Part shown: one piece after another, positions 12,600 to 55,009 of the stretch
Layout of the letters: every line of letters starts with the position of its first letter
Position numbering within the stretch: position 1 is the stretch's first letter
NCBI GenBank assembly: GCA_951828515.1
Contig: OX639992.1
Coordinates: forward strand, 2,830,217 to 2,894,216
From: an uncultured Poribacteria bacterium
Lineage (GTDB): Bacteria > Poribacteria > WGA-4E > WGA-3G
Length of the DNA stretch: 64,000 bases
Reading direction: 5' to 3'
Position numbers and translations under genes: made by a program
The notes under the pieces: generated by a model
The model's input: the letters and a program-made list of their open reading frames with translations, nothing else
Databases searched by the model: none
What the model was told of the DNA's origin: nothing

Positions 12600-12830
12600 A
12601 ATTGTGTAAAGAAAAATTTGGCTATCGGCAGTCGGCTATCGGCAGTCGGCTACAGCTATCCGTTCTGAGCCTCTTCAGTAAAGAAGTTAGCATTTTTTTG
12701 ACGCGAACGATTTCATCGGCTAGCACAATATATTGATTAGCATTGATGTATTTAAGGTCGCGGGCAAGAAGAATGAGATACTCCGTTTCACTGATTGCTG
12801 AAAGCCAACAGCCGATAGCCGATAGCCATT
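12600..12830 (-). pseudogene. fossil of a four-helix-bundle (IVS-type) gene between decamer repeats
   Basis: On the minus strand, from about 12793 down to 12665, the frame encodes ETEYLILLARDLKY followed by a second helix ending VKKMLTSLLKRL. This matches the C-terminal half of the intact gene at 19793-20155. The N-terminal half is missing and is replaced by the decamer repeat exactly where the intact gene reads TCAGCCAGTGAAAC, a sequence that resembles the repeat. The frame also runs into a decamer repeat at its 3' end. It is a clear decayed copy. Confidence 0.8.
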
Positions 12831-18692: not shown

Positions 18693-18831
18693 TTATAGTA
18701 AAACCCATAATTAAGTTTACACTCTGTAATGCGGCGAGGTTAGGGGGAAACGCCCTATCAAAAACACCTCGCCAGCAATGTGGGGTTTTGTGTTTTCGAG
18801 AGTGTGCAAGTATTTTCGGGCTTTACTATAA
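18693..18831. mobile_element. 139-bp inverted-repeat element (TTATAGTAAA ends)
   Basis: Bounded by TTATAGTAAAACCC and its near-inverse GGGCTTTACTATAA. The arms extend further, with CACTCT near the left end answered by AGAGTG near the right. The centre holds a GGCGAGGT/ACCTCGCC palindrome interrupted by the 20-bp module at 18747-18766. A second copy lies at 34307-34427. It has no coding capacity, so it is MITE-like. Confidence 0.75.
18747..18766. repeat. 20-bp module nested in a GGCGAGG palindrome
   Basis: A segment differing at 2 of 20 positions from the module at 40793-40812. Here it separates the two arms of a family B palindrome. Confidence 0.7.
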
Positions 18832-19792: not shown

Positions 19793-20155
19793 ATGCGAGA
19801 TTTCAGAGGGTTACAGGTGTGGGGAAGATCTCATCGGTTAACTCTAAAGATATACGAGTTAACATCGCAATTCCCTCGTGAAGAAACATATGGGCTTATA
19901 AGCCAAATCCGTCGCGCTTGTGCATCAATTCCAACAAACATCGCTGAGGGTTGTGGACGAGAAAGTCCTGCTGATTTCGCTCGTTTTCTTCAAATAGCAA
20001 TGGGTTCAGCCAGTGAAACCGAATATCTCATTCTCCTTGCTCACGACCTGAAATACCTCAATGCCAGCCAATGTACTGAGTTAATTGATACAATCATTAG
20101 CGTTAAGAAGATGTTAGCTGGTTTGCTGCGAAATATCAAAGCCAACAGCCAATAG
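19793..20155 (+). CDS. four-helix-bundle protein (23S rRNA IVS type)
   Basis: 120 residues from the ATG at 19793 (ribosome binding site TTAGGAGC). The sequence MRDFRGLQVW...TSQFPREETYGLISQIRRA...NIAEGCGR is the signature of the TIGR02436 / IVP four-helix bundle family, first seen inside intervening sequences of 23S rRNA. Here it is free-standing between two decamer-repeat blocks (19735-19780 and 20160-20270). Two broken paralogs lie at ~12665 and 40920. The function is unknown. Related bundles bind nucleic acid in diversity-generating retroelements (Avd), but no reverse transcriptase is present here. Confidence 0.9.
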   Translation: MRDFRGLQVWGRSHRLTLKIYELTSQFPREETYGLISQIRRACASIPTNIAEGCGRESPADFARFLQIAMGSASETEYLILLAHDLKYLNASQCTELIDTIISVKKMLAGLLRNIKANSQ

Positions 20156-23980: not shown

Positions 23981-24181
23981 CTTTGGTAGGAGGGAACTCC
24001 GCTTCCCGATTCTTCTCCGATCTCTTTGGTAGGAGGGAACTCCGCTTCCCGACTCTTCTCCGATCTCTTTGGTAGGAGGGAATTCCGCTTCCCGACTCTT
24101 CTCTTTGGTAGGAGGGAACTCCGCTTCCCGACTCTTCTCCGATCTCTTTGGTAGGAGGGAATTCCGATTCCCGACTCTTCT
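23981..24181. repeat. five tandem REPs upstream of the RAYT (family A)
   Basis: Units start at 23981, 24024, 24067, 24103 and 24146, with periods of 43, 43, 36 and 43 bp. Each contains GGTAGGAG, then a GGGAA..TTCCC hairpin and GACTCTTCTC. All are in the same orientation. Inverted copies follow the gene. Confidence 0.9.
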
Positions 24182-24195
24182 CGAAAGAGAAAAAA

Positions 24196-24678
24196 ATGAA
24201 TAAAACGCTCCAAACTCTAAACAAAGGACATCATCAATTACGCAAAGGTAGGCAGTCAATACAGGGTGCCTATTATTCCGTGACACTCGCGACTGAGAAC
24301 AGAAACCCTCTCCTGACAACCCCCGGAACACCAGACATCATTTTTCAATGCTTCGATTGGTTGGAAACGAATGAACGTCTCCAGTGGATATGTGTTATGA
24401 TCATGCCGGACCACATCCATGCTGTATTCCAACTCGGAAACAAACAGACTTTATCTCAACTCATGCAATCTTTGAAGCGGTATACTGCTACACAGATTAA
24501 CACCCATCTCACCCGAAAAGGGTCTCTTTGGCAGGAAAATTATTACGACCACGGTATCCGCCGTGATGAATCCTTGAACAAAATTGTCCGGTACTGCTAT
24601 GAGAATCCTGTAAGAAAGGGATTAGTGGAGGCTGCCCGCGATTATCCGTATTGGCGATGTAAATATGAAATGGAATGA
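24196..24678 (+). CDS. REP-associated tyrosine transposase (RAYT), copy A
   Basis: 160 residues from the ATG at 24196. Y1 single-strand DNA transposase-like (PF01797 type): N-terminal KGHHQLRKGRQSI, HUH metal site in MIMPDHIHAVF, and the RYCYENPVRKGLV/YWRCKYEM C-terminus typical of RAYTs. RAYTs cleave and move REP palindromes as single strands. Here the gene is bracketed by five direct family A palindromes upstream and inverted ones downstream, the arrangement of a complete REP/RAYT unit. The start follows AAAGAGA. Confidence 0.92.
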   Translation: MNKTLQTLNKGHHQLRKGRQSIQGAYYSVTLATENRNPLLTTPGTPDIIFQCFDWLETNERLQWICVMIMPDHIHAVFQLGNKQTLSQLMQSLKRYTATQINTHLTRKGSLWQENYYDHGIRRDESLNKIVRYCYENPVRKGLVEAARDYPYWRCKYEME

Positions 24679-24679
24679 A

Positions 24680-24800
24680 GAGTCGGGAATCGGAGTTCCC
24701 TCCTACCAAAGAGATCGGAGAAGAGTCGGGAATCGGAGTTCCCTCCTACCAAAGAGATCGGAGAAGAGTCGGGAATCGGAGTTCCCTCCTACAGGAGAGG
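24680..24800. repeat. three inverted family A REPs after the RAYT
   Basis: Copies at 24680, 24723 and 24766, 43-bp period, in the opposite orientation to the upstream array. The first starts 2 bp after the RAYT stop codon. Confidence 0.9.
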
Positions 24801-24818
24801 GGTTGGAATGAACAACAA

Positions 24819-24928
24819 TGAGAATCCTGTGAGAAAGGGATTAGTGGAGGCTGCCCGCGATTATCCGTATTGGCGGTGTAAATATGAAATGGAATGAAGA
24901 GTCGGGAAGCGGAGTTCCCTCCTACCGG
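24819..24928 (+). pseudogene. duplicated 3' tail of the RAYT with its REP
   Basis: About 79 bp nearly identical to the last 27 codons of the RAYT (ENPVRKGLVEAARDYPYWRC), with few differences, followed by one more family A palindrome (24899-24928). There is no start or HUH motif, so it is not a gene. It records a local duplication of the gene end together with its REP. Confidence 0.85.
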
Positions 24929-35174: not shown

Positions 35175-35202
35175 TCTATGGGCGCAGTATGCCTCCTTTT
35201 TA

Positions 35203-35576
35203 AGACATAGCACCCCTACAGGGTGCGGCACTTTAAATGAACGATTTTCTATAGACATAGCACCCCTACAGGGTGCGGCACTTTAAATGAACGATTTTCT
35301 ATAGACATAGCACCCCTACAGGGTGCGGCACTTTAAATGAACGATTTTCTATAGACATAGCACCCCTACAGGGTGCGGCACTTTAAATGAACGATTTTCT
35401 ATAGACATAGCACCCCTACAGGGTGCGGCACTTTAAATGAACGATTTTCTATAGACATAGCACCCCTACAGGGTGCGGCACTTTAAATGAACGATTTTCT
35501 ATAGACATAGCACCCCTACAGGGTGCGGCACTTTAAATGAACGATTTTCTATAGACATAGCACCCCTACGGGGTGT
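35203..35576. repeat. 50-bp tandem array of family C palindromes (7 full units)
   Basis: Seven identical 50-bp units starting at 35203, 35253, 35303, 35353, 35403, 35453 and 35503, plus a partial eighth at 35553 that diverges. Each has AGACATAG, the palindrome CACCCCTACAGGGTG, and a constant spacer. Spacers are identical, so this is not a CRISPR array. The perfect identity implies recent amplification. Confidence 0.95.
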
Positions 35577-40780: not shown

Positions 40781-40882
40781 TGTAGGAGGGAAGAAACGCC
40801 CCAGCAAAAACACTCCGATTCCCGACGCTTGGTAGGCGTTGCTGACAGCCATCCTTGTAGGAGGGAACTCCGATTCCCGACG
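40781..40882. repeat. two family A REPs, one split by a 20-bp module
   Basis: TGTAGGAGGGAA at 40781 is separated from CTCCGATTCCCGACGC by exactly 20 bp (40793-40812). The neighbour at 40855-40882 has the uninterrupted form, including the same flank GCTTGGTAGGCG. Confidence 0.88.
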
Positions 40883-40919: not shown

Positions 40920-41162
40920 ATGCGGGATTTCAGGAAATTGCAGGTGTGGAAAAAATCTCATGGGTTAACGCTGAAAATATATAAGTTAACATCCCAATTC
41001 CCTCGTGAGGAGATATATGGACTGACGAATCAAATCCGTATCCTTCTTGCGCATAACCTGAAATACGTTAACACCAAACAATATGTTGAACTAACTGATG
41101 CAATCGTTAGTGTCAAGAAGATGCTAACTTCCCTACTAAAGACTATAAGATCTAAGAAATAG
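40920..41162 (+). pseudogene. four-helix-bundle paralog with internal deletion
   Basis: 80 residues: MRDFRKLQVWKKSHGLTLKIYKLTSQFPREE joins directly after QIR to ILLAHNLKY. About 40 residues (helices 2-3, including NIAEGCGR) present in the gene at 19793 are absent, in frame. Start and stop are intact, so it may still be translated, but the bundle cannot form normally. It is followed at once by decamer repeats. Confidence 0.8.
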
Positions 41163-52137: not shown

Positions 52138-52275
52138 TGGCTATCAGCGATCAGGTCGGTTTTTCTGACGAAAAACCTTTCGGCGGTCAGTCAAGAGGTG
52201 GTGGAAGGGGTGTTTTTGCTGGGGTGTCTCTCCCGATTTCCCTCTTTACTGATGGCTGATTGCTGACAACTGACT
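52138..52275. repeat. decamer palindrome with a 20-bp module
   Basis: GGCTATCAGCGATCAGG, then CAAGAGG...CCCTCTTT, then TGATGGCTGATTGC. Within the loop at 52211-52230 is the inverse of the 20-bp module (18 of 20 positions match). Confidence 0.7.
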
Positions 52276-54399: not shown

Positions 54400-55009
54400 A
54401 ATGGCTGTCAGCCATCAGCGATCGGCTATCGGTTTTCTCTTTCCCGGTAGGTGCGGTTTCATGAGTTTTAATAAAATATTTCGGTAATTCCATTTGAAAA
54501 AACGATTGTAGGGGGTTTTTGCTTGGGTGTTTCTTGGTCTTGTGCCTGCCCGCACATTACTTCATCTAACCGCACCGGGCATAATCATGAAATTACCGAT
54601 GACTGATCGCTGAAAGGATTTTTTTCAAAAAATCCGCCCTGATTGCTGACCACTGATAGCCAATACCGTGCCAAAATGGCACGGTAACCCCAAATTTATT
54701 TTTACAAACGACAAATTGTCACTTCATAAAACCTGCCAAAATGTCACGTTCTTCCGCGGAACCCTGATGATACGGCAGTTTCAGGGATTGGCACGAAAAT
54801 TGCTACTAAATATCTTGAAGATACGACGGCATTTTTACGCCGTCTAATGATCAAGACTTACGCAATTTCCTCAGTAGGTGCAGTTTTCTGACCGCACTTT
54901 CGTATGGTAATAGTTCGCGTAAGTCCCAATGATATAAAGAAACTGAGTGAAGGCATAGGAGCCTTCCCTCACAATTTTCACGCCATACTCTAAGGAGGAA
55001 TTCAGCAAC
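54400..55009. repeat. repeat-rich region before groES
   Basis: Decamers (54403-54432), a family E palindrome split by a TIR element (54451-54576; separate entry), decamers (54600-54662), and an AGACTTACGCA...GCGTAAGTCC inverted-repeat element at 54854-54926 with a diverged family E copy inside. A TATAAA at about 54935 could be the groES -10. No CIRCE operator (TTAGCACTC-N9-GAGTGCTAA) is present. Confidence 0.55.
54461..54566. mobile_element. TIR element inserted in a family E palindrome
   Basis: Left flank GGTAGGTGCGGTTTC and right flank TAACCGCACCGGG are the two halves of a family E palindrome. Between them lies ATGAGTTTTAATAAAATATT ... TTCATC. Inside, a family F palindrome is itself interrupted by the 20-bp module (54514-54533). 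Confidence 0.7.

Follow-up and report, generated by a model that had tools for sequence, protein, structure and literature searches.

How can a module of 20 nt come to split one of two tandem REPs and leave its twin intact, and what kind of unit is it? The question arises at a locus in the window, the whole stretch of 64,000 nt that was analysed, which corresponds to positions 2830217-2894216 of a Candidatus Poribacteria genome assembled in one contig of 5.85 Mb (hereafter the host). A first-pass annotation had reported the split at 40793, with the intact neighbour as exact empty site, as well as three near-copies at 18747, 52211 and 54514; the split and its empty site are borne out by the sequence, and the near-copies were found where they had been placed (Table 1). 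From the comparisons presented here the module is read as a mobile element that is very small (about 21 nt) and non-autonomous, a reading to which we assign a probability of roughly 0.7.

The interrupted REP and its sister sites

The intact REP lies 45 nt 3' of the module and shows the same 37-nt downstream flank as the interrupted one. The direct repeats on either side of the module measure 37 nt (100% identical) and 27 nt (96% identical). The unit inserted here is best read as AGAAACGCCCCAGCAAAAAC, between GGGA and ACTCC. Empty counterparts are available for two of the sister sites: MITE copies without the module read TTAGGAAACCTCGCC, and the module-free relatives of the palindrome at 54514-54533 read GACCTGCCCC. 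The MITE that surrounds the copy at 18747 is represented by about 16 copies with identical context in the DNA read.

Table 1. Module copies and other features of the window (position 1 is the first nucleotide of the 64,000-nt stretch)
Feature	Position	Strand	Remarks
Module GAAACGCCCCAGCAAAAACA, GAAACGCCCCAGC type	40793..40812	+	between GTAGGAGGGAA and CTCCGATTCCCGACGCTTGGTAGGCGTTGCTGACAG
GTAG-type REP, interrupted	40782..40826	+	GTAGGAGGGAA, module, CTCCGATTCCCGAC
Intact REP, empty site	40857..40881	+	GTAGGAGGGAACTCCGATTCCCGAC; in tandem with the interrupted REP
Module copy GAAACGCCCTATCAAAAACA, TATC type	18747..18766	+	18/20; inside GGCGAGG..CCTCGCC, loop of the MITE palindrome
MITE, amplified together with its own module	18694..18830	+	ends TATAGTAAA..TTTACTATA, read by eye from the flanks
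Module copy GAGACACCCCAGCAAAAACA	52211..52230	-	18/20; in decamer-repeat hairpin AAAGAGG..CCTCTT
Module copy GAAACACCCAAGCAAAAACC	54514..54533	-	17/20; splits GGGCAGG..CCTGCCC
REPtron	23986-24925		between inverted GTAG-type REP A arrays: RAYT-like Y1 transposase gene (24148-24678)
PF05635 matches	12682-12795, 19811-20119, 40932-41039		one below the family cut-off
50-bp tandem repeat, seven copies	35202-35550		AGACATAGCACCCCTACAGG..

Anatomy of the unit and its junctions

To define the insert, each copy was matched to its closest relative without the element, and the unit that these pairs yield is about 21 nt long (about 21-23), with the consensus (T)RRGAAACRCCCMAGCAAAAAC. The inserts read AGAAACGCCCCAGCAAAAAC at GGGA^ACTCC, GCGGAAACACCCAAGCAAAAAC at ACCCG^ACCTAC and AAGAAACRCCCMAGCAAAAAC at GAGTCG^CCCGCGCC, CAGTG^CCTACC and similar empty sites; a further paralogous empty site is TTAGG^AAACCTCGCC. 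The 3' end is near-constant and falls after CAAAAAC, at times with one extra A, and the 5' junction varies by 2-4 nt (AA, GG, CA, GCG, AGGG). The right flank follows the consensus (A/C)CCY, with C at R+2 in 92%, and the unit lies immediately 5' of (A)CCY, facing its target in a single direction. The feature common to the targets is this sequence, and not a palindrome. The target is often YCG^CC, and the filled site then reads YTG through a C -> T change at the junction. Since YCG -> YTG is seen both at copies of the T hairpin repeat and in orthologous comparisons (host positions 193369, 1214969, 3011794 and 3246152), the change accompanies insertion.

Outside nested arrays, 122 full-length copies were counted as against two doubtful ones, and truncated copies were absent. 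Alone, the unit is unfolded or reaches only -0.3 kcal/mol, a GGG/CCC hairpin forming only if the variable 5' part is GGG. It has neither inverted ends nor a constant target duplication.

Copy number and host range

With up to three mismatches the module occurs 238 times in the whole host genome, as compared with no occurrence of the same pattern read backwards, which rules out chance matches, one of the alternatives that had been set against the original observation. Within one mismatch of the degenerate core GAAACRCCCHAKCAAAAAC the host carries 263 copies (control: 0). By this latter measure 35 of the 36 sampled genomes of the host genus, the host included, carry 11-263 copies, the sole genome with none being G021, and other genera of the host's order have 0-2 copies per genome. 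Among 84,980 species genomes the exact 20-mer was matched in 16 stretches, 15 of which belong to Candidatus Poribacteria MAGs and the remaining one, at chance level, to a Paceibacterota MAG; two matches in viral contigs were likewise judged to be at chance level. Rfam gave no match for the module, CRISPR-like arrays carrying its sequence were not seen in the DNA read, and the literature searched contained no paper on repeats in Poribacteria.

Flank statistics are based on 1.71 Mb of host stretches, partly picked around copies. These contain 130 copies within one mismatch, of which about 16 belong to the one MITE and the other 114 represent 52 dissimilar flank contexts. The module was met in REPs, in the MITE, in a tandem 85-bp hairpin repeat, in decamer repeats, in its own core and in the reading frame of murB.

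Evidence for movement

In the closest sampled relative, G030, 26 orthologous loci were located in DNA that is 79-98% identical. Three copies are common to both genomes, eight sites are clean empties and two are probable empties, the rest being rearranged, unreadable or undecided; of the roughly 13 loci that can be read, 8-10 lack the unit in G030. Because most of the readable sites are empty there, the movement is recent: the element has moved since the host split from this relative. Of 30 genomes of the genus compared at murB, 28 have no insert; the host and G030 are filled, with inserts that differ from each other and are both in-frame (+12 and +36 nt as against the others). Copies of the T hairpin repeat that carry the unit stand beside about 40 empty ones, including tandem neighbours at 352689 (empty) and 352817 (filled). 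The reverse case also occurs: one relative (L048) has an insert where the host, at about 1212630, is empty. This insert of about 65 nt contains a CCCCCTGATAAGGGG palindrome split by the inverse element. Precise loss is an unlikely reading of the differences between filled and empty sites because of the C -> T scar. Exact empty sites, both in adjacent copies and at orthologous positions, uphold the earlier view of a discrete short module set in unlike sequences; the word mobile as used here refers to genomes compared and not to movement observed.

Some of the copies have multiplied as hitch-hikers of the MITE and other repeat families, and the 20-mer might be a passenger throughout, namely a loop segment that varies within REP, MITE and hairpin families, spreads with them and crosses from one family to another through gene conversion or through template switching at short GG..CC homology. 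Such a view accommodates the MITE-B copies, amplified with the module in about 16 identical contexts, and the many copies within repeat families. It does not account for copies in non-repeat sequence such as murB, for tandem neighbours with identical flanks that differ by the unit only, for the same unit in about 50 dissimilar contexts, or for the presence of the element in G005, where the 0.4 Mb read showed no T hairpins and few REP A copies. We therefore regard it as rather improbable.

Genomic context, strand and hairpins

Copies lie mostly between genes: 111 of the 130 are outside ORFs of at least 100 aa, though such ORFs make up 83% of the DNA. Relative to the flanking genes, neither direction is preferred (41 vs 35). 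Non-MITE copies are biased in strand, with a ratio of 44/10 below 2.9 Mb and 23/37 above (Fisher p = 3e-6), and REP A and the 21-nt element switch their preferred strand in the same zone of the host, about 2.75-3.0 Mb, which includes the window. GC skew is weak, and the switch is not assignable to ori or ter because dnaA is located at 2.348 Mb.

Mobility of the REP/RAYT type, in which Y1 (IS200/RAYT) transposases acting on single-stranded hairpins would move the unit, agrees with this parallel change of strand and with the presence of a REPtron in the window. The distribution of Y1_Tnp speaks against it, G021 having five matches and no copies, and G012, a fragmented assembly, 166 copies and no match found; moreover, the unit forms no hairpin and bears no GTAG tag. 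We consider such an origin very unlikely. The window holds three of the six Y1 transposase matches in the 5.85-Mb host genome, and the genome's three matches to PF05635 (four-helix / 23S rRNA IVP) lie there too; it is possibly a variable island.

Slightly less probable still is an immobile site that selection keeps for its function, as protein-binding site, RNA motif, promoter or terminator. Strong sequence conservation throughout the genus and the location outside ORFs would suit such a site, but depletion in genes is equally expected of a neutral insert, and the neutral orientation, the predominance of empty orthologous sites in G030, the insertions inside murB and the unit's own core and the failure to match Rfam all argue against it. 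The most probable reading is that of a repeat, selfish or neutral, which serves no function for the flanking genes.

At least four pairs span the junction at 77% of nonredundant sites vs 63% of random intergenic ones (p = 0.056). Placement in hairpin loops (33% of sites vs 24%, p = 0.19) is not significant in comparison with random intergenic and shifted positions, and an immediate stem across the junction is no commoner than with shuffled flank partners. As a preference, the link to palindromes is weak. The first-pass annotation had expected the module mainly inside palindromes and had named a location mostly outside them as the contrary outcome. The result falls between the two: the sites are intergenic and many of them lie in hairpins, yet their excess over random intergenic DNA is slight. 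A palindrome as the defining target has to be abandoned, as the murB frame, the unit's own core and flanks without a stable hairpin are also hit.

The 85-bp repeat mentioned above (ACCTTGCGG ... ATCCGCCTGCGCCGTTGTTGCAGGCTACGG) is approximate in length, often tandem and folds into a hairpin; it was seen at host positions 224918, 311540 and 2708009, among others, with more than 60 loci in 1.7 Mb. Loci carrying it gave no Rfam match.

Self-nesting and arrays

The unit also inserts into its own core at a fixed point, between GAAA(CR) and CCC, which gives rise to nested arrays such as GGAAATTG-AGGAAATTG-GGGAAACG-(CCCTATCAAAAAC)3. At locus 1643647, a single inverse copy in G030 corresponds to two copies in the host, the second inserted inside the first. 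When 12 arrays were parsed by eye, left remnants equalled right blocks in eight and outnumbered them in four, which fits nested insertion better than slippage. Host positions 4737818 and 11960 carry the arrays (CCCTATCAAAAAC)5 and x3, which on the other strand read (GTTTTTGATAGGG)n; these G-runs resemble telomeres and lie within the apex of a hairpin. A mutational artefact of hairpins, by slippage or intra-molecular template switching with an insert drawn from local sequence, is hardly credible: foldable DNA does hold clusters of insertions and the (CCCTATCAAAAAC)n arrays of 13-mers resemble products of slippage, but matching left-hand remnants accompany 8 of the 12 arrays and the template is not local because the inserted sequence is the same at unrelated loci and in 35 species.

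Candidate enzymes and proposed mechanism

Elements of about 20 nt are too small to encode a transposase or to hold normal transposase sites. RVT_1 (PF00078) was absent from the host (G000) and from the copy-rich genomes G030, G012 and G020, so that an ordinary reverse transcriptase is disfavoured unless these genomes have lost it. A retroelement-derived insert is likewise at odds with a host without PF00078 and a module without 5' truncated copies, and the missing truncation is unlike target-primed synthesis of the LINE type. RVT_1, Y1_Tnp and PF05635 were each considered as required partners and rejected, as none tracks copy number across genomes.

For a mobile unit of this size, we propose that a trans-acting machine copies a fixed sequence into exposed single strands, with intergenic, foldable DNA preferred. 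The bottom strand at the target ends (R)GG, and the insert there continues GTTTTTGCTTGGGYGTTTC. Many copies have C residues after AAAAAC, with which this GG might base-pair so as to prime synthesis on a short RNA (or ssDNA) template, the other end being joined imprecisely. If the template ended in ..AAAAACC, such priming would account for the (A)CCY rule, and the runs of 13-mers would follow from newly made GGG that re-aligns. Such synthesis could involve a free RNA containing (U)RRGAAACRCCCMAGCAAAAAC(A/C)C and 3'-extended DNA ends GG + GTTTTTGCTTGGG. The templated step is put forward tentatively as the likeliest route, at somewhat less than even odds. More speculative, and on balance unlikely, is a dedicated non-RVT_1 machine with its own RNA or DNA template that would write the word of about 21 nt onto GG 3' ends laid bare in foldable DNA in a telomerase-like manner, including the iterated 13-mers.

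Comparison with known elements and significance

Small dispersed repeats (SDR) of Nostoc and other cyanobacteria were reportedly described by Elhai et al. in 2008. In later publications, SDR are about 20 bp long and possibly mobile (PMC2884548), and SDR5 is cited as inserted in HIP1 (PMC4390886). The module resembles them in size and high copy number (SDR about 20-27 nt; module 238-263 copies), in insertion into other repeats and mini-transposons with precise empty sites, in self-nesting (reported for some SDR families) and in restriction to one clade. It differs in its unrelated host lineage (phylum Poribacteria), in the (A)CCY target with C -> T at the junction and in having no stable structure of its own, whereas SDR4-6 are reported to have a common predicted fold with compensatory changes. 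The sequence comparison, made by exact 20-mer, gave no sign of homology, the one occurrence outside Poribacteria being at chance level; a weaker likeness to an SDR family may exist. The earlier remark that the unit could not be assigned to a known element class needs amending, as a comparable class exists: by analogy, the module is best read as acting like an SDR, of that kind by behaviour, unrelated in sequence and without demonstrated homology.

Other classes share single traits with the module. Rickettsia palindromic elements are about 100-150 nt long and palindromic and can sit in-frame in protein-coding genes, as the module does, but size and palindrome differ. One MITE family carries and multiplies the module, which itself has neither the terminal inverted repeats nor the constant target duplication of a MITE. 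REP/REPIN sequences with their RAYT partners (PMC3116915), including the GTAG class (PMC3733652) to which REP A of the window belongs, are like the module short, intergenic, high in copy number and biased in chromosome strand; the module differs in being non-palindromic and without GTAG tag, with a copy number that does not track Y1 transposases. Poribacteria are absent from the phyla listed for GTAG REPs (PMC3733652).

The module is far smaller than ordinary jumping genes, and its hosts are sponge-associated Poribacteria. It represents a second, unrelated SDR-like case in another phylum, with about 35 sampled species that have 11-263 copies and one that has none. How elements of about 20 nt move is a question raised by the cyanobacterial SDRs that, to our knowledge, has never been answered. 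Empty sites, tandem neighbours as controls and a reproducible CG -> TG scar make the mechanism testable by comparative and biochemical means. The inserts in murB represent a route for short in-frame peptides into conserved proteins. Telomerase-like writing, if true, would amount to a novel way of inserting DNA for what would be among the smallest mobile elements known, and one possibly common to the cyanobacterial SDRs.
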